In this document: positions 6,300-16,501 of the stretch, piece by piece | How positions within the stretch are numbered: position 1 is the stretch's first letter | How the letters are laid out: each line of letters starts with the position of its first letter | Origin: Armatimonadota bacterium | GTDB taxonomy: Bacteria > Armatimonadota > Fimbriimonadia > Fimbriimonadales > Fimbriimonadaceae | Assembly (NCBI GenBank): GCA_016789105.1 | Contig: JAEURN010000003.1 | Span: 1-64,000, forward strand | Length of the DNA: 64,000 nucleotides | Reading direction: 5' to 3' | The notes under the pieces: model-generated | Database searches by the model: none | What the model saw: only the letters and a program-made list of their open reading frames with translations | Told to the model about the DNA's origin: nothing | Made by a program: the position numbers and the translations under genes

Positions 6300-7118
6300 A
6301 TGCCCAAAATCGCGCTGGCAACCTGTTTGAACCTCTATGAACCGGACAATGACCAAGAAATGATGCTGGCCAGGTTCAACGAAGCCGGGTTCGACACCTG
6401 CCTCGCCGCCTGGGATGACAACCAGGTCGAATGGTCAGGGTTCGATGGGGTCGTCGTGCGCTCGACCTGGAATTATTTCGAGCATCTCCCTGAGTTCAGG
6501 GCGTGGGTCTCAGCGGTCGACGGGGTCACCGTGCTCATGAACCCGGCCGACGAAATGTTCGATAACACGGATAAGCGCTACCTCCTGGAATTGCCCCGTC
6601 ACTGCATCCCCATCGTCCCAACCGTCATCGGCCAAGCCGACCACGGGTTTGCCAGCAAACGGGTGGTTGTCAAACCTTCCGTCGGGGCAGGCAGCTACCT
6701 CACCCGATTCTTTGAAGCAGGCGATTCCGCCCGGATCGCGGCCCACATTGAGGAAATCGAACAATCAGGATGCGAGGCATTGGTCCAGCCCTATTTGGAA
6801 TCCGTCGAATCAGGCGGAGAGCGCTCGCTGATCTGGGTCGATGGCGAAATCACCCACGCCATTGTCAAGCGTCCGCGGTTTGATGGGGAGGATGAGTCCG
6901 TTTCCGATGCGCAAATGCCCAGCAATGCCGACTTGGCGGCCGCCGAGCCGGTCATGGATCTTCTCACATCCAAAACCCTGTACGCTCGAATCGACTTCAT
7001 CGTTCAAGACGGCAAGCATTTGCTCAGCGAGTTGGAAGTCGTCGAACCCTCCCTTTTCCTTTCCCAGCACCCGCCGGCCCTCGACCGTTTGATCGACGGA
7101 GTCCGCAAACGGATCTAA
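6300..7118 (+). CDS. ATP-grasp family ligase
   Basis: 272 residues. The frame is open further left, but the chosen ATG begins a well-formed protein (PKIALATCLNLYE), and the upstream extension is low-complexity divergent-promoter sequence. Features fit ATP-grasp enzymes of the RimK/glutathione-synthetase type: an N-terminal Rossmann-like half (VVVRSTWNYFE), DKRYLLELP, the RVVVKPSVGAGSYLTR glycine-rich ATP loop near residue 120, ALVQPYLES, and a C-terminal ARIDFIVQDG with SELEVVEPSLFL carrying acidic Mg ligands. Similar proteins in many phyla are annotated as RimK-domain or cephalosporin-hydroxylase-like ATP-grasp proteins without a proven substrate. It converges on the thioredoxin-like gene, overlapping its stop by 4 bases. 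Confidence 0.75.
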   Translation: MPKIALATCLNLYEPDNDQEMMLARFNEAGFDTCLAAWDDNQVEWSGFDGVVVRSTWNYFEHLPEFRAWVSAVDGVTVLMNPADEMFDNTDKRYLLELPRHCIPIVPTVIGQADHGFASKRVVVKPSVGAGSYLTRFFEAGDSARIAAHIEEIEQSGCEALVQPYLESVESGGERSLIWVDGEITHAIVKRPRFDGEDESVSDAQMPSNADLAAAEPVMDLLTSKTLYARIDFIVQDGKHLLSELEVVEPSLFLSQHPPALDRLIDGVRKRI

Positions 7119-8278
7119 GGCCAGGGCACTTGTACTGGGCTCAGAGGATCCAGGTATTCCGCCCAGAAATAACTTTGTTGGGGAGGAACCGTCCTGGAAA
7201 TCTCGTCATCCACCGCCCGGAAACCGATTTTGAGGGGGTATTTGCCAGCTGGAGCGCCACTTGTGTTTTCATGGTCGCCCCAGGCATAACCTTCGGCGAC
7301 CGCTTCAAATCCGGTCGCGATTCGGCGGGCCGGGTCGATGGCGATCTCGCCGACTAACCGACCGGCAATCCCCTTTTCTGAACCTCCATGGCCCTCGTTG
7401 TTTGTCAGTTTATAAAGTCCTTCAAACCGGTACCGGCCGTTGCCTATCCGGCTCATTTGGATGTCGAGGACGCGGATGTCGTCGTACCGCCAGCGGGTTG
7501 GTTCCCCCCGGACGTCGTCGATGAGGTGGAACCTGGCGATCCGTCGGGCCATTTTGGGAGGCATCGGGAATTGGTCGCCTTTAGCCGCCAAAATTGCCGC
7601 TGCGTCTTCTGGCAAAACCCAATAGTGATCCCGTCCGATCCCGCTGTTCTTATCCGAGCAGCCCTCGGGTAAGGGGGTGATCCGGGCGATCGTGCGGACG
7701 GTCAGGGTGCCCGGAGGCCGGGCTTGAGTCCACCGCTTGACCGGCCCAAGATCCAGCTTCACCGACTTGGAGGGGCTCGCCTTGAACTTGGCAAGCCCCT
7801 CATCAAGGATCTTCATGAACTCGTCGTGCTGGCGACCATGCATGCTGAAAACGTAGGCTTGGCCATCGGCGCCGACAATGTAGAACCCTTGCGCGGTGAC
7901 CCCCTTGGCCGCATTGGGGTGGACTTTCACCGCCGTATCCATGAACCAGGTCTTTTCTGGAGAATCCCACTTGCTGACCTGCAATTCGTTCGTGTTCCCG
8001 GCAAAGGGAATGAATTCGGTTTTGAGCCGGGCGATCACATCAGGGTTGGTGAACAAGACACGCTTGTCCGCTTGGCCGTTATTTCACGTGCATCCCGTTG
8101 GGTGGCCGTTCATCATCCAAAGGAAGAGCGGCTTGCCAGAGTCGGATGCTTCTTGGCGGGCTTGGAACAAATTCAGTCGCCATCCGACTTCCATCCACTT
8201 TTCTTCTTCAGGCCCTGGCCAAAGGGCATCAACCCGGTCGGTCACATCGGACCAGGTACACGAAGCAACGGCCAGCAT
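7115..8278 (-). CDS. Thioredoxin-like protein with in-frame UGA: candidate selenoprotein
   Basis: The reading frame runs from ATG 8278 (or ATG 8290) to 7115 with a single UGA at 8084-8086; both sides are in the same frame and read as one protein of about 387 residues. Around the UGA the protein reads PLFLWMMNGHPTGCT-U-NNGQADKRVLF. This resembles the helix-1 redox site of thioredoxin-fold proteins, with Cys-Thr preceding the presumed selenocysteine (residue 65, CTU). A following region (GFYIVGADGQAYVFSMHG) fits the thioredoxin cis-Pro half; the C-terminal ~220 residues are an unassigned beta-rich domain. AAGGAGG at 8291-8297 abuts ATG 8290 and lies 12 bases from ATG 8278, favouring the latter. 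The longer start would give a short VASC lipobox-like N-terminus. Alternatives are a nonsense mutation or sequencing error in a Cys or Trp codon. Confidence 0.65.
8051..8086 (-). promoter_or_regulatory. Candidate bacterial SECIS element (UGA plus downstream hairpin)
   Basis: The in-frame UGA at 8086-8084 is followed after 14 bases by a 7-bp stem GGACAAG/CUUGUUC (8069-8063 and 8057-8051, one G-U pair) with a 5-base apical loop CGUGU. The apical loop starts 21 bases after the UGA and has G among its first two bases. These values match the published bacterial SECIS rule: loop 16-37 bases from the UGA, G in the first two loop positions, short upper stem. The fit is by inspection only. Confidence 0.55.
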
Positions 8279-8305
8279 GAACGGAATCATCCTCCTTCAT
8301 TGTAT

Positions 8306-9124
8306 TCAAACCAGACTCAGCATTTGGCGGATCGCCTGGCATTCCGACAAGATTTCTTGTCGATCGGAGCGCCAGGAAAACTTATCTCCGAACCCGCCGT
8401 ATTCCAAGGCGACGATCGAGGGGCGGGCGGCGTGCCCCTCCCGGATTGCCGCCACAACAAAGGCCGTTGCCTGCCAATCTTCCTCCGACATTGGCATGCT
8501 GTCCAGCAGGAGATCCCCACCGAGCCTCGTCCCGACCCCGCAGATATGCCACTCCCGCAATGAATGCAAGGGGAATTTCAAGACCTCGTCGCGGAATTCA
8601 AGCCCTGATTCCAAGCATGTGATCCGCAAATGGGCCGTGTCAAGGAGCATTCCACAGCCTGTCTCGGCGACCAACCAGGTAAAGAACCCGCCCAGGGCCG
8701 CTTCTTTGACCGGGGCCGGATCATCTGACCGGGCGACGACGTTTTCGACGACGACCTGGGAAACTGGGACGTGTTCGGCCAGGCGGCTAATGCACTGCAC
8801 GCAATCACGCAAAACCCCTTCCACGCCCGTCAAACCCGGGTAATCGGATTCCCGGATTTTGATGTGCAAGTTGAGGTGGTCGGTTTCGGTCTCGTCCATC
8901 AACCGGAACACCCAACTCCAGTCCGTTTCCTCATGATCGAAGTTGACAACCCCGCCTGGCGAGATCCCAAATGGAAAATGGACGTAAACCGGCCCGTCCG
9001 CTGCCTGTTCGATCCATTCGGATTGCAACGCGAGCTTGAGCAGGTCGGCGGGCAGGCGGCCTTCGTCCCGCAGCGCAATGGCCTCGGGGGAGGCGTTGAC
9101 GGCAAGCCTCACCTTTGCCCCCAA
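8306..9124 (-). CDS. TIM-barrel protein resembling DUF692 (MNIO) enzymes
   Basis: 272 residues, with no signal peptide. Segments that recall the DUF692 multinuclear non-heme iron oxidative enzymes are VVVENVV in mid-protein, CGMLLDTAHLRIT about 40 residues later, EWHICGVG, and LLLDSMPMSEEDW. In classical members these carry metal-binding Glu, Asp, Asn and His; here some positions (for example DS-M-P where DtH-P is usual) look altered, so a xylose-isomerase-like barrel is an alternative. MNIO enzymes oxidatively modify cysteines or asparagines in peptides, often with a partner protein; no precursor peptide is seen. It overlaps the upstream dehydratase gene by 16 bases and lies just upstream of the UGA-containing thioredoxin-like gene, so the three are likely cotranscribed. 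Confidence 0.5.
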   Translation of the reverse strand: MGAKVRLAVNASPEAIALRDEGRLPADLLKLALQSEWIEQAADGPVYVHFPFGISPGGVVNFDHEETDWSWVFRLMDETETDHLNLHIKIRESDYPGLTGVEGVLRDCVQCISRLAEHVPVSQVVVENVVARSDDPAPVKEAALGGFFTWLVAETGCGMLLDTAHLRITCLESGLEFRDEVLKFPLHSLREWHICGVGTRLGGDLLLDSMPMSEEDWQATAFVVAAIREGHAARPSIVALEYGGFGDKFSWRSDRQEILSECQAIRQMLSLV

Positions 9125-13133: not shown

Positions 13134-14336
13134 TCAGGTCTGGTTGCCGCCGACCCGCGGCCGGTTCGGCTGCCCGCGCACGGCCCCCGGCGGCGGCGTA
13201 TTGGGCTCGGCCCTTTGCCCGTCATCGGTCCCCGCGGCCTCGGTGGAACCGGACGGACGCGCCGCGTTGGAAGACCCCAGCGAGACGATTCGGTCGAATT
13301 CGAAGGGATCTTTAGCCTTGGTTCTGGCTTCGTTGTAATCCACCAACCCAGCCTCCACCAGCCTGGCTAGCGATTGATCCAAAGTGTGCATTTTTTGGCG
13401 GGCCCCCGTTTGGATGATCGACCCGATTTGGTACGACTTGTTTTCGCGGATCAGGTTCCGAACGGCGCTGGTGGCATTCAGGATCTCGTATGCGGCGATG
13501 CGGCCCCGGCCATCTTTGCGCCGCACCAACGTTTGGCTGACTACCCCGAGGAGGTTGACCGAAAGCTGCATCCGGATCTGCTGCTGCTGGTGCATGGGGA
13601 ACACGTCGACGATGCGGTCGACCGTTTGCAGCGCATCGACAGTGTGCAAGGTGGCAAAAACTAGGTGCCCGGTTTCCGCGGCGGTGATCGCCAAATGGAT
13701 CGTTTCCAGGTCTCTCATCTCCCCAACCAGGATGACATCGGGGTCTTGCCGCAACACGTATTTGAGCGCGTTGGCAAAACTCAGGGTGTCCACATCCAGT
13801 TCGCGTTGGTTGATCAAAGCCTTGTGGTCGTCGTGGACGAACTCGATCGGGTCTTCTACCGTCACGATATGGAGTTCTTGGGTGCGGTTGATGCGGTCGA
13901 CCATGGCCGCCAAACTGGTCGACTTCCCGCTCCCGGCCGGGCCGGTAACCAAAACCAGTCCCCGGGGACGTTCAATGAACTCAAAGCACGCCGGCGGAAG
14001 GTGAAGTTCCTCCATCGTGGAAATCTCGAACGGGATGACCCGGAATGCCGCTTGCGCATGCTCCCGTTGTTGGTAGAGGTTCCCGCGGAACCGGCTGACC
14101 CCGGGAATCTCAAGCGCAAAGTCCAGCTCAAAATCCCGGTCGAATTTCTCGATTTGATCGGGCCGGAGGAGCTCCTTGACCGCGGCGCGAAAATCCGCAT
14201 CCGTGAATTCCGGCACCCCATCCATGGAATACAGTTCCCCGAAGACGCGGATATAGACCTTTCCGGTATCCGTTTTGAAGTGCAGGTCCGACCCGTTGCG
14301 CCGGACGCATTCTTTCAGCAGTTCTTCAATGTGCAA
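13134..14336 (-). CDS. PilT-like type IV pilus retraction ATPase (copy 1)
   Basis: About 400 residues if TTG 14336 is the start (LHIEELLKECVRRNGSDLH), which overlaps the upstream PilT-like gene by 11 bases. The frame runs further upstream without protein-like sequence. Motifs: SDLH near the N-terminus, Walker A GPAGSGKST, the Asp box ITVEDPIEFVH-like TVEDPIEF, Walker B VILVGEMRDLET and the His box TLHTVDALQT. The AIRMRNL-type motif is replaced by EILNATSAVRNLI. It has a disordered Pro/Gly/Asn-rich C-terminal tail of about 45 residues absent from the other copies. Family role: hexameric ATPase that depolymerises type IV pili. Walker A has Ala where the other copies have Thr (GPAGSGKS). Confidence 0.9.
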   Translation of the reverse strand: MHIEELLKECVRRNGSDLHFKTDTGKVYIRVFGELYSMDGVPEFTDADFRAAVKELLRPDQIEKFDRDFELDFALEIPGVSRFRGNLYQQREHAQAAFRVIPFEISTMEELHLPPACFEFIERPRGLVLVTGPAGSGKSTSLAAMVDRINRTQELHIVTVEDPIEFVHDDHKALINQRELDVDTLSFANALKYVLRQDPDVILVGEMRDLETIHLAITAAETGHLVFATLHTVDALQTVDRIVDVFPMHQQQQIRMQLSVNLLGVVSQTLVRRKDGRGRIAAYEILNATSAVRNLIRENKSYQIGSIIQTGARQKMHTLDQSLARLVEAGLVDYNEARTKAKDPFEFDRIVSLGSSNAARPSGSTEAAGTDDGQRAEPNTPPPGAVRGQPNRPRVGGNQT

Positions 14337-15420
14337 GGGTTGTCGCCTCCGCCAATCCTTCTTTCTCCGCCCTGCGGTGGAACTCGGCCGTGTTCGAACT
14401 TTTTGCCAAGGCATGCTCAAAGTCAATCTTGCCTTCGCGCAAGAGCTTGAGGAGCGAGCCATCCAAGGTTTGCATGCCGAAATCGATCCCGGTCTGGATA
14501 TGGGGCAGGATCTGGTGGGTCTTGCCGTCGCGGATCAAAGTCCGGATCGCCGGGGTGACGGCCATCACCTCGTGCGCGGCAATCCGGCCCTTGCCGTCTT
14601 TGGTCGGCAAAAGGGTCTGCGAGATAACCGCCTGAAGGGTCACGCTCAGCTGGGTGCGGATCTGCGACTGCTGCTCGCTGTCGAATACGTCGACGATCCG
14701 GTCGATCGTCTGGGCAGCATCCACCGTGTGCAAGGTGGAAAAAACCAAGTGGCCGGTTTCCGCGGCGGTGATTGCCAGTTGGATGGTCTCCAAATCGCGC
14801 ATCTCCCCAACCAGGATGACATCAGGGTTTTGCCGCATCACATGTTTCAGGGCTTCGGAGAAACTGTGGGTATCGGTGCCAAGTTCGCGTTGGTTGATGA
14901 TGCTCGTCTTGTCGGCATGGACGTATTCGATCGGGTCTTCCACCGTGATGATGTGCCGCCGCGCATTGATGTTGATATGGTCGATCATCGCGGCCAACGA
15001 AGTCGACTTGCCACTTCCCGTGGGGCCGGTGACAAGGATGAGCCCCCGAGGCAACAATGCCAAAGTTTTGCAAACGGGAGGGAGCCTCAGTTCGTCGATC
15101 GTCCGGATCTCATATGGGATCAGCCTGAAAACCCCGCCCACCTGGTGCCGCTGCCAAAAGAGGTTGACCCGGAACCGCGCCAATCCGGGCACGGCCACCG
15201 AAAGGTCGCACTCTTTGAAGTTTTCAAGCCGTTCCCTCCGATCCTCGGTCAGGATGCTGTCGAAAATCTGGTGCAACTCATCACCAGACAGGGCCGGGAA
15301 ATCGGTCCGGCGCAAATCGCCGTGGGTCCGCATGAGCGGCGGGTTGCCAGCCTTAAGGTGGAGGTCGCTGGCCTGGACCTCCACGACCCGGCGCAATAGT
15401 GCTTCAAGCGTGGGATGCAT
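14326..15420 (-). CDS. PilT-like type IV pilus retraction ATPase (copy 2)
   Basis: 364 residues from ATG 15420. Motifs: ASDLHLKAGNPP (11-30 region), Walker A GPTGSGKST, ITVEDPIEYVH, Walker B VILVGEMRDLET, STLHTVDAAQT, and AAHEVMAVTPAIRTLIR, which is the best match of the three copies to the PilT AIRNLIRE motif. This makes it the most canonical PilT here. The start codon is 1 base past the stop of the upstream copy, and its 3' end overlaps the downstream copy, so translation of all three is probably coupled. Confidence 0.93.
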   Translation of the reverse strand: MHPTLEALLRRVVEVQASDLHLKAGNPPLMRTHGDLRRTDFPALSGDELHQIFDSILTEDRRERLENFKECDLSVAVPGLARFRVNLFWQRHQVGGVFRLIPYEIRTIDELRLPPVCKTLALLPRGLILVTGPTGSGKSTSLAAMIDHININARRHIITVEDPIEYVHADKTSIINQRELGTDTHSFSEALKHVMRQNPDVILVGEMRDLETIQLAITAAETGHLVFSTLHTVDAAQTIDRIVDVFDSEQQSQIRTQLSVTLQAVISQTLLPTKDGKGRIAAHEVMAVTPAIRTLIRDGKTHQILPHIQTGIDFGMQTLDGSLLKLLREGKIDFEHALAKSSNTAEFHRRAEKEGLAEATTLAH

Positions 15421-15421
15421 C

Positions 15422-16501
15422 TTATCGGCGGAGCATCTGCTTGAGTTCGGAAAGGATGCCCGCGTAATTGTACGCAACCTCTTCCGTCACTATCCCTGCC
15501 TTAACATAACGGGCCAGAGATTGGTTCATCGTCTGCATTCCCCAGAATCCGCCCTCGTTCATGAGGTGGTACAGATCGCCGAAGTGGCCGTCTTCAATCG
15601 CTTTGCTGACGGTTGGCGTGCAGATCAGAATCTCAGCCGCGACCACCCGGCCATTCCCATCGGCCCTCGGAACGAGCTTTTGGGCGACAATCGCCCTCAG
15701 CGAGTTGGAAAGGCGCTGGCAAAGGTGAATCTTTTCATGCGGCGGGAACATGTTGATGACCCGGTCGAGTGTTTCGTATGCTGAAGCGGTGTGCACGGTT
15801 GAGAACACCAAGTGGCCGGTTTCCCCAGCTTGCAACGCGACGTTCATGGTTGTGGTATCGCGCATTTCACCAACCAGGATCACGTCCGGCGCTTCCCGGA
15901 CTACGGCCCGCATGGCCGGATAAAAGTCTTCGGTGTCGATCCCGATCTCGCGCTGGCTGACATAGCTGTTCTTGTCTTGGTGCTCGACTTCCAACGGGTC
16001 TTCGATCGTGACGATGTGGCACCGCCGCTGTTCGTTGATGATATCGATGAGGGCGGAAAGGGTTGTCGTTTTCCCAGAACCAGTCGGTCCGGTGACAAGA
16101 ACCAGCCCCTGTCGGTTCTTGGTGACCTCGCTCAAGCTGGGCGGCAAGCCAAGCTCTTCAAGTGTCCGGATCCGGCTGGGGACGATCCGCATAACGGCTG
16201 CCATTGAGCCCCGTTGACTGTAAACGTTCGTCCGAACCCGGCATTTGCCTTCCAACACAAAGGCAAGGTCCATTTCCCGCGTGTCTTCGAACTTTCGCCA
16301 CTGACGTTCGCTCATAACGGTGCGGACCAGGCGTTCCACATCGGCTTCCTTCAATACCGGCCACTCGCCCGGAAGATCGCGGACAAAGCTGTACTGCTTC
16401 ATCCGGGGTCGGCTGTTCGCCTTAAGGAAGATGTCCGAGGCGGTTTCGTTGTATCCGAGCTCGATCAGTTCGAGGAGTTCGATGGAATCAGGGTCACGCA
16501 T
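15422..16501 (-). CDS. PilT/PilU-like ATPase (copy 3)
   Basis: 359 residues, the first and most divergent of three tandem paralogues. N-terminal SDIFLKANSRPRM replaces the usual SDLHL. Walker A is GPTGSGKTT, the Asp box IVTIEDPLEVEH, Walker B VILVGEMRDTTT, the His box STVHTASAYETLDR, and AAEILICTPTVSKAIED stands where AIRNLIRE is expected. This divergence at the retraction motif suggests a PilU-like accessory ATPase or another specialised motor. It sits 11 bases downstream of a gene for a membrane-anchored protein. Confidence 0.9.
   Translation of the reverse strand: MRDPDSIELLELIELGYNETASDIFLKANSRPRMKQYSFVRDLPGEWPVLKEADVERLVRTVMSERQWRKFEDTREMDLAFVLEGKCRVRTNVYSQRGSMAAVMRIVPSRIRTLEELGLPPSLSEVTKNRQGLVLVTGPTGSGKTTTLSALIDIINEQRRCHIVTIEDPLEVEHQDKNSYVSQREIGIDTEDFYPAMRAVVREAPDVILVGEMRDTTTMNVALQAGETGHLVFSTVHTASAYETLDRVINMFPPHEKIHLCQRLSNSLRAIVAQKLVPRADGNGRVVAAEILICTPTVSKAIEDGHFGDLYHLMNEGGFWGMQTMNQSLARYVKAGIVTEEVAYNYAGILSELKQMLRR

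Follow-up and report, generated by a model that had tools for sequence, protein, structure and literature searches.

A probable thioredoxin-like selenoprotein family with a Cys-x-Sec site, unlisted in the sources searched and almost devoid of cysteine versions

Analysis of the minus strand of the window (the whole 64,000-nucleotide stretch of DNA studied here) revealed a frame from 8290 to 7115 that comprises 391 residues plus a TAG stop. The first-pass annotation had described one UGA splitting an otherwise continuous frame at GCT-U-NNG and had read the gene as a candidate selenoprotein. When the frame was re-read, it contained exactly one internal stop, TGA 8084-8086, within the peptide WMMNGHPTGCT-U-NNGQADKRVLF, and the selenoprotein interpretation is supported by homologues, decoding machinery and hairpin selection alike, with Sec incorporation itself being inferred. 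The following features were assigned:

7115..8290, minus strand: selenoprotein gene of 391 residues with Sec at residue 69; start at ATG 8290 or ATG 8278, stop TAG at 7115-7117
8233..8290, minus strand: short hydrophobic N-terminus, inferred to be an export signal (read from sequences by eye, without a predictor)
8084..8086, minus strand: in-frame UGA read as selenocysteine (U69), HPTGCT-U-NNG; kept in orthologues and paralogues
8051..8069, minus strand: SECIS hairpin GGACAAG-CGUGU-CUUGUUC; 7 bp stem, 5-nt loop, G in loop position 2
7772..8200, minus strand: thioredoxin-fold domain, residues 31-173, with Sec at the N-terminus of helix 70-77 (predicted model)
7118..7729, minus strand: beta-rich domain at the C-terminus (residues 188-391), which carries the conserved motif RFHLVDNVRG(E/Q) and lacks a clear match among known folds

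A Shine-Dalgarno-like AAGGAGG immediately abuts ATG 8290, so the true start may instead be ATG 8278 (M5). The Thr codon that precedes Sec (8087-8089) is ACG in nearly all family members, possibly a sign that recoding needs a particular context. Many other frames in the window are split by one TGA, and none of these has a Sec motif that could be recognised by eye.

Whole-genome searches of 61 relatives located the family in 26, and nearly every full-length match has exactly one in-frame TGA, which is common to close orthologues (50-69% identity) and paralogues (20-30%). The TGA lies at the same column, HPxGCT-U-NNG, in the 27 homologues read, and homologues with UGA at this column span 20-69% identity and six phyla. 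Across the alignments the Sec column is invariant and W/MNGHPxGCTUxNG nearly so, the motif NGHPxGCTUxNG being present in 90 distinct members. GTDB (one genome per species) was scanned with the peptide pattern MNGHPx[GC][CD]T, which stops before Sec and therefore does not select for UGA. This yielded 191 relatives; the best 80 of the 191 were examined further, and TGA was the next codon at all 80 loci. The phyla named among these best 80 are Armatimonadota, Planctomycetota, Latescibacterota, Gemmatimonadota, Marinimicrobia and Chloroflexi, and the label Bacillota stands on one record.

Within single phyla, a profile search (E up to 0.001) placed the family in 86 of 291 Armatimonadota genomes, the weakest of which hold thioredoxin-domain matches that may not be true members, and the family was found in 101 of 392 Planctomycetota genomes at E up to 1e-15. 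It is present in about a quarter of the genomes searched in these two phyla, often in several copies. Planctomycetota rows spanning the site (E up to 1e-20) were counted by hand, giving about 120 with TGA versus 8 without. The family expands within genomes, as judged from neighbouring copies at G292:C42:50016-52281 and from up to eight matches in the Armatimonadota genome G079; no relatives were detected in the plasmids and viral contigs searched.

The first-pass annotation had proposed a check for selA, selB, selC and selD, and the window's genome (G000) does carry selA (contig C3, 432 bits), selB (contig C5, 293 bits, cut-off 242), selD (contig C8, 350 bits) and tRNA-Sec with anticodon TCA (contig C8, 72.7 bits). 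The selD gene (L099, G000:C8:168775-169692:-) has one in-frame TGA, and its product, selenophosphate synthetase, is therefore probably itself a selenoprotein. Of the 61 relatives, 37 have selA, and the family occurs in 25 of these 37 versus 1 of the 24 that lack it; the exception, G054, is an assembly that is 73% complete. selA also scores above its cut-off in 19 of 20 family holders from other phyla, the remaining one being a Chloroflexi draft genome.

The putative SECIS element begins shortly after the UGA, with its stem formed by bases 15-21 and 27-33 past the UGA, the loop by bases 22-26, and the apical loop beginning 21 nt past the UGA. Published limits for bacterial SECIS elements are a loop of 3-9 nt and a stem of 4-16 bp located 16-37 nt after the UGA (PMC13188914 section 5), together with a G in the first two loop positions and an MFE of -7.5 or lower (PMC13188914). 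The SECIS-like hairpin noted earlier is within these limits for position, stem, loop, G2 and distance, and the energy criterion is met marginally (-7.7 kcal/mol for 47 nt; -4.9 for the bare hairpin). Folding bore out the proposed geometry but did not show the element to be thermodynamically exceptional by itself: the MFE of the 47 nt is no stronger than chance when compared with dinucleotide shuffles (z 0.29). The case for the hairpin therefore rests on its homologues.

Among six orthologues within the genus, codons of identical residues agree in 100 of 100 cases (100%) from U+5 to U+11 versus 45% gene-wide; no seven-codon stretch of the gene is better conserved than this one and the one that starts a codon earlier. 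In 92 distinct family genes the best SECIS-like hairpin has a mean of -7.1 kcal/mol versus -3.2 once their synonymous codons are permuted (paired Wilcoxon p 8e-14, which is optimistic because the genes are related). A sizeable minority of the relatives tested have no simple hairpin that is clearly better than their own codon-permuted control. The stem occurs in three registers that differ among subfamilies. In the commonest register (65 sequences), 80% of cells pair versus 37-49% when the register is slid by 1-3 bases, double changes are found at five of seven pairs, and the covariation score was reached by none of 500 shuffles. A second subfamily displays a similar but weaker pattern of pairing and covariation. 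On this comparative sequence evidence, the hairpin is under selection at the RNA level.

That the UGA is merely an ordinary stop, arising by a Cys- or Trp-to-stop mutation or a base-call error and leaving a pseudogene or two separate products, would suit gene callers of the standard type, which would end or start a gene here, and the separate 313-residue ORF that starts at TTG downstream, but we give it practically no weight, as the identical UGA recurs in more than 200 independently sequenced homologues from six phyla (which rules out base-call error, mutation and pseudogene), strong protein conservation extends to either side of it, the codons of the stem do not vary and, among the 61 relatives, the family is found almost only in selA-containing genomes. 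There is no measurement of Sec insertion, which leaves formal room for a suppressor tRNA that reads the UGA as some other amino acid, for example Trp or Cys, without Sec. This is very improbable given that tRNA-Sec(TCA), SelA, SelB and SelD are all present and that a covarying hairpin occupies the place required by SelB; a Trp reading was rejected, since no homologue read has Trp at the Sec column. What speaks for selenoprotein status is the conserved UGA, together with the hairpin, the Sec decoding genes and the predicted fold; this support is comparative, and Sec insertion is an inference.

The proposal of a thioredoxin-like protein is upheld by a high-confidence AlphaFold model of the window protein (pLDDT 92.4, pTM 0.90) and by structural matches of residues 31-173 in this model. 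The closest is 3f9u (VIA Z 13.7, rmsd 3.3, 128 aligned), 1sen also matches (VIA Z 12.3, rmsd 2.4, 119 aligned), and the close matches include ERp18, AGR3, Thioredox_DsbH and DsbD-gamma. In the model Sec69 comes immediately ahead of helix 70-77, at the spot where thioredoxins hold their attacking Cys, the start of the active-site helix; the thioredoxin-fold criterion is satisfied on the model only. A sequence search of solved structures with the window protein gave no match, and the family profile reached 3f9u only at E 0.004. The C-terminal domain reaches pLDDT 96 when modelled alone, and no Pfam model fits residues 188-391. Its best structural match, OmpX (Z 6.9, rmsd 3.6, 119 aligned), is within the range of chance barrel matches, may reflect no more than a common arrangement and was given no interpretation. 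The N-termini of the family are hydrophobic, and many relatives have one that resembles a signal peptide or lipoprotein signal; from these N-termini, read by eye, we infer that the window protein is probably exported.

A review of May 2026 lists 119 prokaryotic selenoprotein families and subfamilies (PMC13188914), none of which has the NGHPxGCTUxNG motif or a matching domain. The CTU arrangement, which the first-pass annotation had suspected of not belonging to a well-described family, is thus absent from this catalogue. Of 55 diverse members, not one scores above a cut-off in NCBIfam (June 2026) or Pfam, the nearest models being those of VPGUxxT. The families of Haft and Tolstoy 2025 (PMC12013261) entered this comparison by way of the catalogue table and NCBIfam. 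The motif NGHPLGCT was not found in the literature searched. A 2026 groundwater-genome survey (Deng et al., cited in PMC13188914) reports unvalidated candidates, and an unlabelled earlier sighting of the family there is not excluded.

Thioredoxin_7 (PF13899), the DsbD C-terminal domain and ERp18/AGR share the predicted fold (VIA Z 9.6-13.7), and the Sec of the present family occupies the place of their attacking Cys; their CxxC is replaced by C-x-U, and a C-terminal domain is added. The gathering cut-off of Thioredoxin_7 (27 bits) is not met, the window protein giving no match to PF13899 and the best family member 23.6 bits. The CxxC of classical thioredoxins and DsbD (or UxxC/CxxU) is absent from the family, which has C-T-U and no Cys at +3. 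Sec likewise follows Cys by two residues in the thioredoxin-like selenoprotein Sec.1 (PF13192, CxU) and in other catalogued CxU families (rhodanese form 3, UshA-like and ferredoxin-thioredoxin reductase); these catalogued families have Pfam or NCBIfam models, whereas members of the present family match none of them (E up to 0.01). The P-x-G-x-x-U spacing in the printed motif of TsoC, the NEPxGxxU selenoprotein (NF045708), resembles NGHPxGCTU, and the window protein has no match to NF045708 at E up to 1.

The family could still be merely a remote branch of a catalogued thioredoxin-like selenoprotein family, above all VPGUxxT (NF041382 and NF041383; OS_HP5 in the catalogue). Both have a thioredoxin-like N-terminal domain with Sec, a downstream domain and a similar length, with weak similarity over about 65 residues; the Cys homologue L016 matches NF041383 at E 4e-6 and 26.7 bits, the best score in the family, and some Sec members reach 12-17 bits (12.4 bits for the window protein). 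These family scores of 12-27 bits are about a tenth of the cut-offs (350 for NF041382 and 275 for NF041383), only those 65 or so residues match, the C-terminal domain is unmatched, and the site reads NGHPxGCTUxNG (HPTGCTUNNG in the window protein) in place of VPGUxxT. Membership of VPGUxxT thus failed on both score and motif, and a remote relationship of this kind seems unlikely without being closed off. NF041383 (VPGUxxT type 2) was also unmatched in the 291 Armatimonadota genomes, but control genomes gave no match either, so that this absence carries little weight by itself.

The first-pass annotation had expected homologues to align Cys or Sec with the UGA. This holds for all Sec homologues, which have UGA, and for the single Cys homologue, but not for a small minority, mostly from selA-less genomes, that carries Ser, Asp or another residue. 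Among the non-Sec members read there is a single Cys version (L016/L214, GQPSCDDC), five Ser versions (L211, L212, L226, L228 and L231), one Asp version (L213) and six rearranged sites that have neither Cys nor Sec (L026, L225, L227, L229b, L230 and L232), that is, one Cys versus twelve others, in the phyla sampled only. So Sec is seldom exchanged for Cys, and where it is lost both C67 and U69 are gone. A tree of 67 rows, one of them a Cys row, calls for five changes of the Sec label, of which starred branches force at least four. No selA match was obtained in five genomes with only non-Sec copies (G170, G152, G405, G478 and G599), nor in G031. selA is present in G012 (L026), G612 and G677 despite their non-Sec copies; G612 and G677 (L228 and L231) have selA yet showed only Ser versions of the family protein.

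Cys-containing homologues appear to exist for all known selenoproteins, according to the 2025 deep-Sep paper (PMC12013277), and the deep-Sep method may discard selenoproteins without Cys homologues, as did earlier Cys/Sec-pair searches (PMC12013277); the present family fits this blind spot. The finders published to date depend on Cys homologues and would discard the family, and the scarcity of Cys versions is the probable reason why it escaped homology-based searches. A family that is large and nearly Cys-free suggests that the blind spot in selenoproteome surveys is systematic. It also provides a natural experiment on the reasons for using Sec, in that loss of Sec decoding has left lineages with Ser, Asp or other residues at this site and not with Cys. 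We tentatively suggest, with somewhat less than even confidence, an almost obligate selenoenzyme family whose reaction is impossible with Cys, so that loss of Sec decoding leaves either no enzyme or a redox-dead Ser or Asp copy; it would stand for a class of such families that is invisible to Cys-demanding finders, with a C-terminal domain of perhaps new fold and perhaps a new reaction. Annotation pipelines probably truncate the family protein, which one new family model would correct.

Taken together, we consider it very likely that this is the gene of a selenoprotein from a family unlisted in the sources searched, with UGA 8084-8086 decoded as Sec via the hairpin at 8069-8051. Its product most likely acts as an exported C-x-U redox enzyme; Sec insertion, export and the redox cycle are all inferred. 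Neither the decoding system nor the thioredoxin fold is new, while the sources searched describe no such C-x-U site, no such C-terminal domain and no comparable scarcity of Cys versions. A mechanism is proposed where SelB and tRNA-Sec(TCA), directed by the hairpin, would insert Sec69 at the N-terminus of the active-site helix, two residues after Cys67. The Sec69 selenolate would attack an oxidised substrate such as a disulfide or peroxide, Cys67 would resolve the adduct to a Cys67-Sec69 selenenylsulfide, and a separate reductant would reset it, while the C-terminal domain may bind substrate or a partner. Cys67 is 97% conserved in a set that is mainly pattern-selected, and its resolving role is only a guess because Thr or Ser replaces it in L027 and L028 and because the divergent relatives L025, L215, L217, L233 and L235 have adjacent C-U, not C-x-U. 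The sites of these five relatives are HCUQNG, RCUGFAS, PCUVGGT, RCUGGAY and NCUAGSV, respectively, and they are perhaps further separate selenoprotein subfamilies.

Alternatively, the C-x-U pair could bind a soft metal or metalloid (Hg, Cu or As) with no redox cycle, in line with the exported appearance of many members and with the several catalogued selenoproteins that are metal-related (PMC13188914 Table 1). This remains an outside chance, in view of the thioredoxin fold, which in the predicted model puts the chalcogen at the nucleophile position, and of the lack of recurring metal-handling neighbours. An exported redox enzyme with a C-x-U centre is the most likely identity of the window protein, export and redox cycle being inferences.

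No conserved gene neighbour pointed to a substrate. Operon context was discarded as a clue to function, as neighbours are conserved only within the genus and do not recur outside it. The gene directly upstream (window 8306-9124, minus strand) lies on the same strand after a 15-base gap and matches PF05114, MbnB/TglH/ChrH, which are enzymes that modify small peptides. A similar gene stands at that place in three other loci of the genus, and a functional link with the selenoprotein gene is possible, though not general. Further along, window 13134-16501 (minus strand) contains three consecutive overlapping genes that each match PF00437 (T2SSE), a secretion/pilus ATPase.
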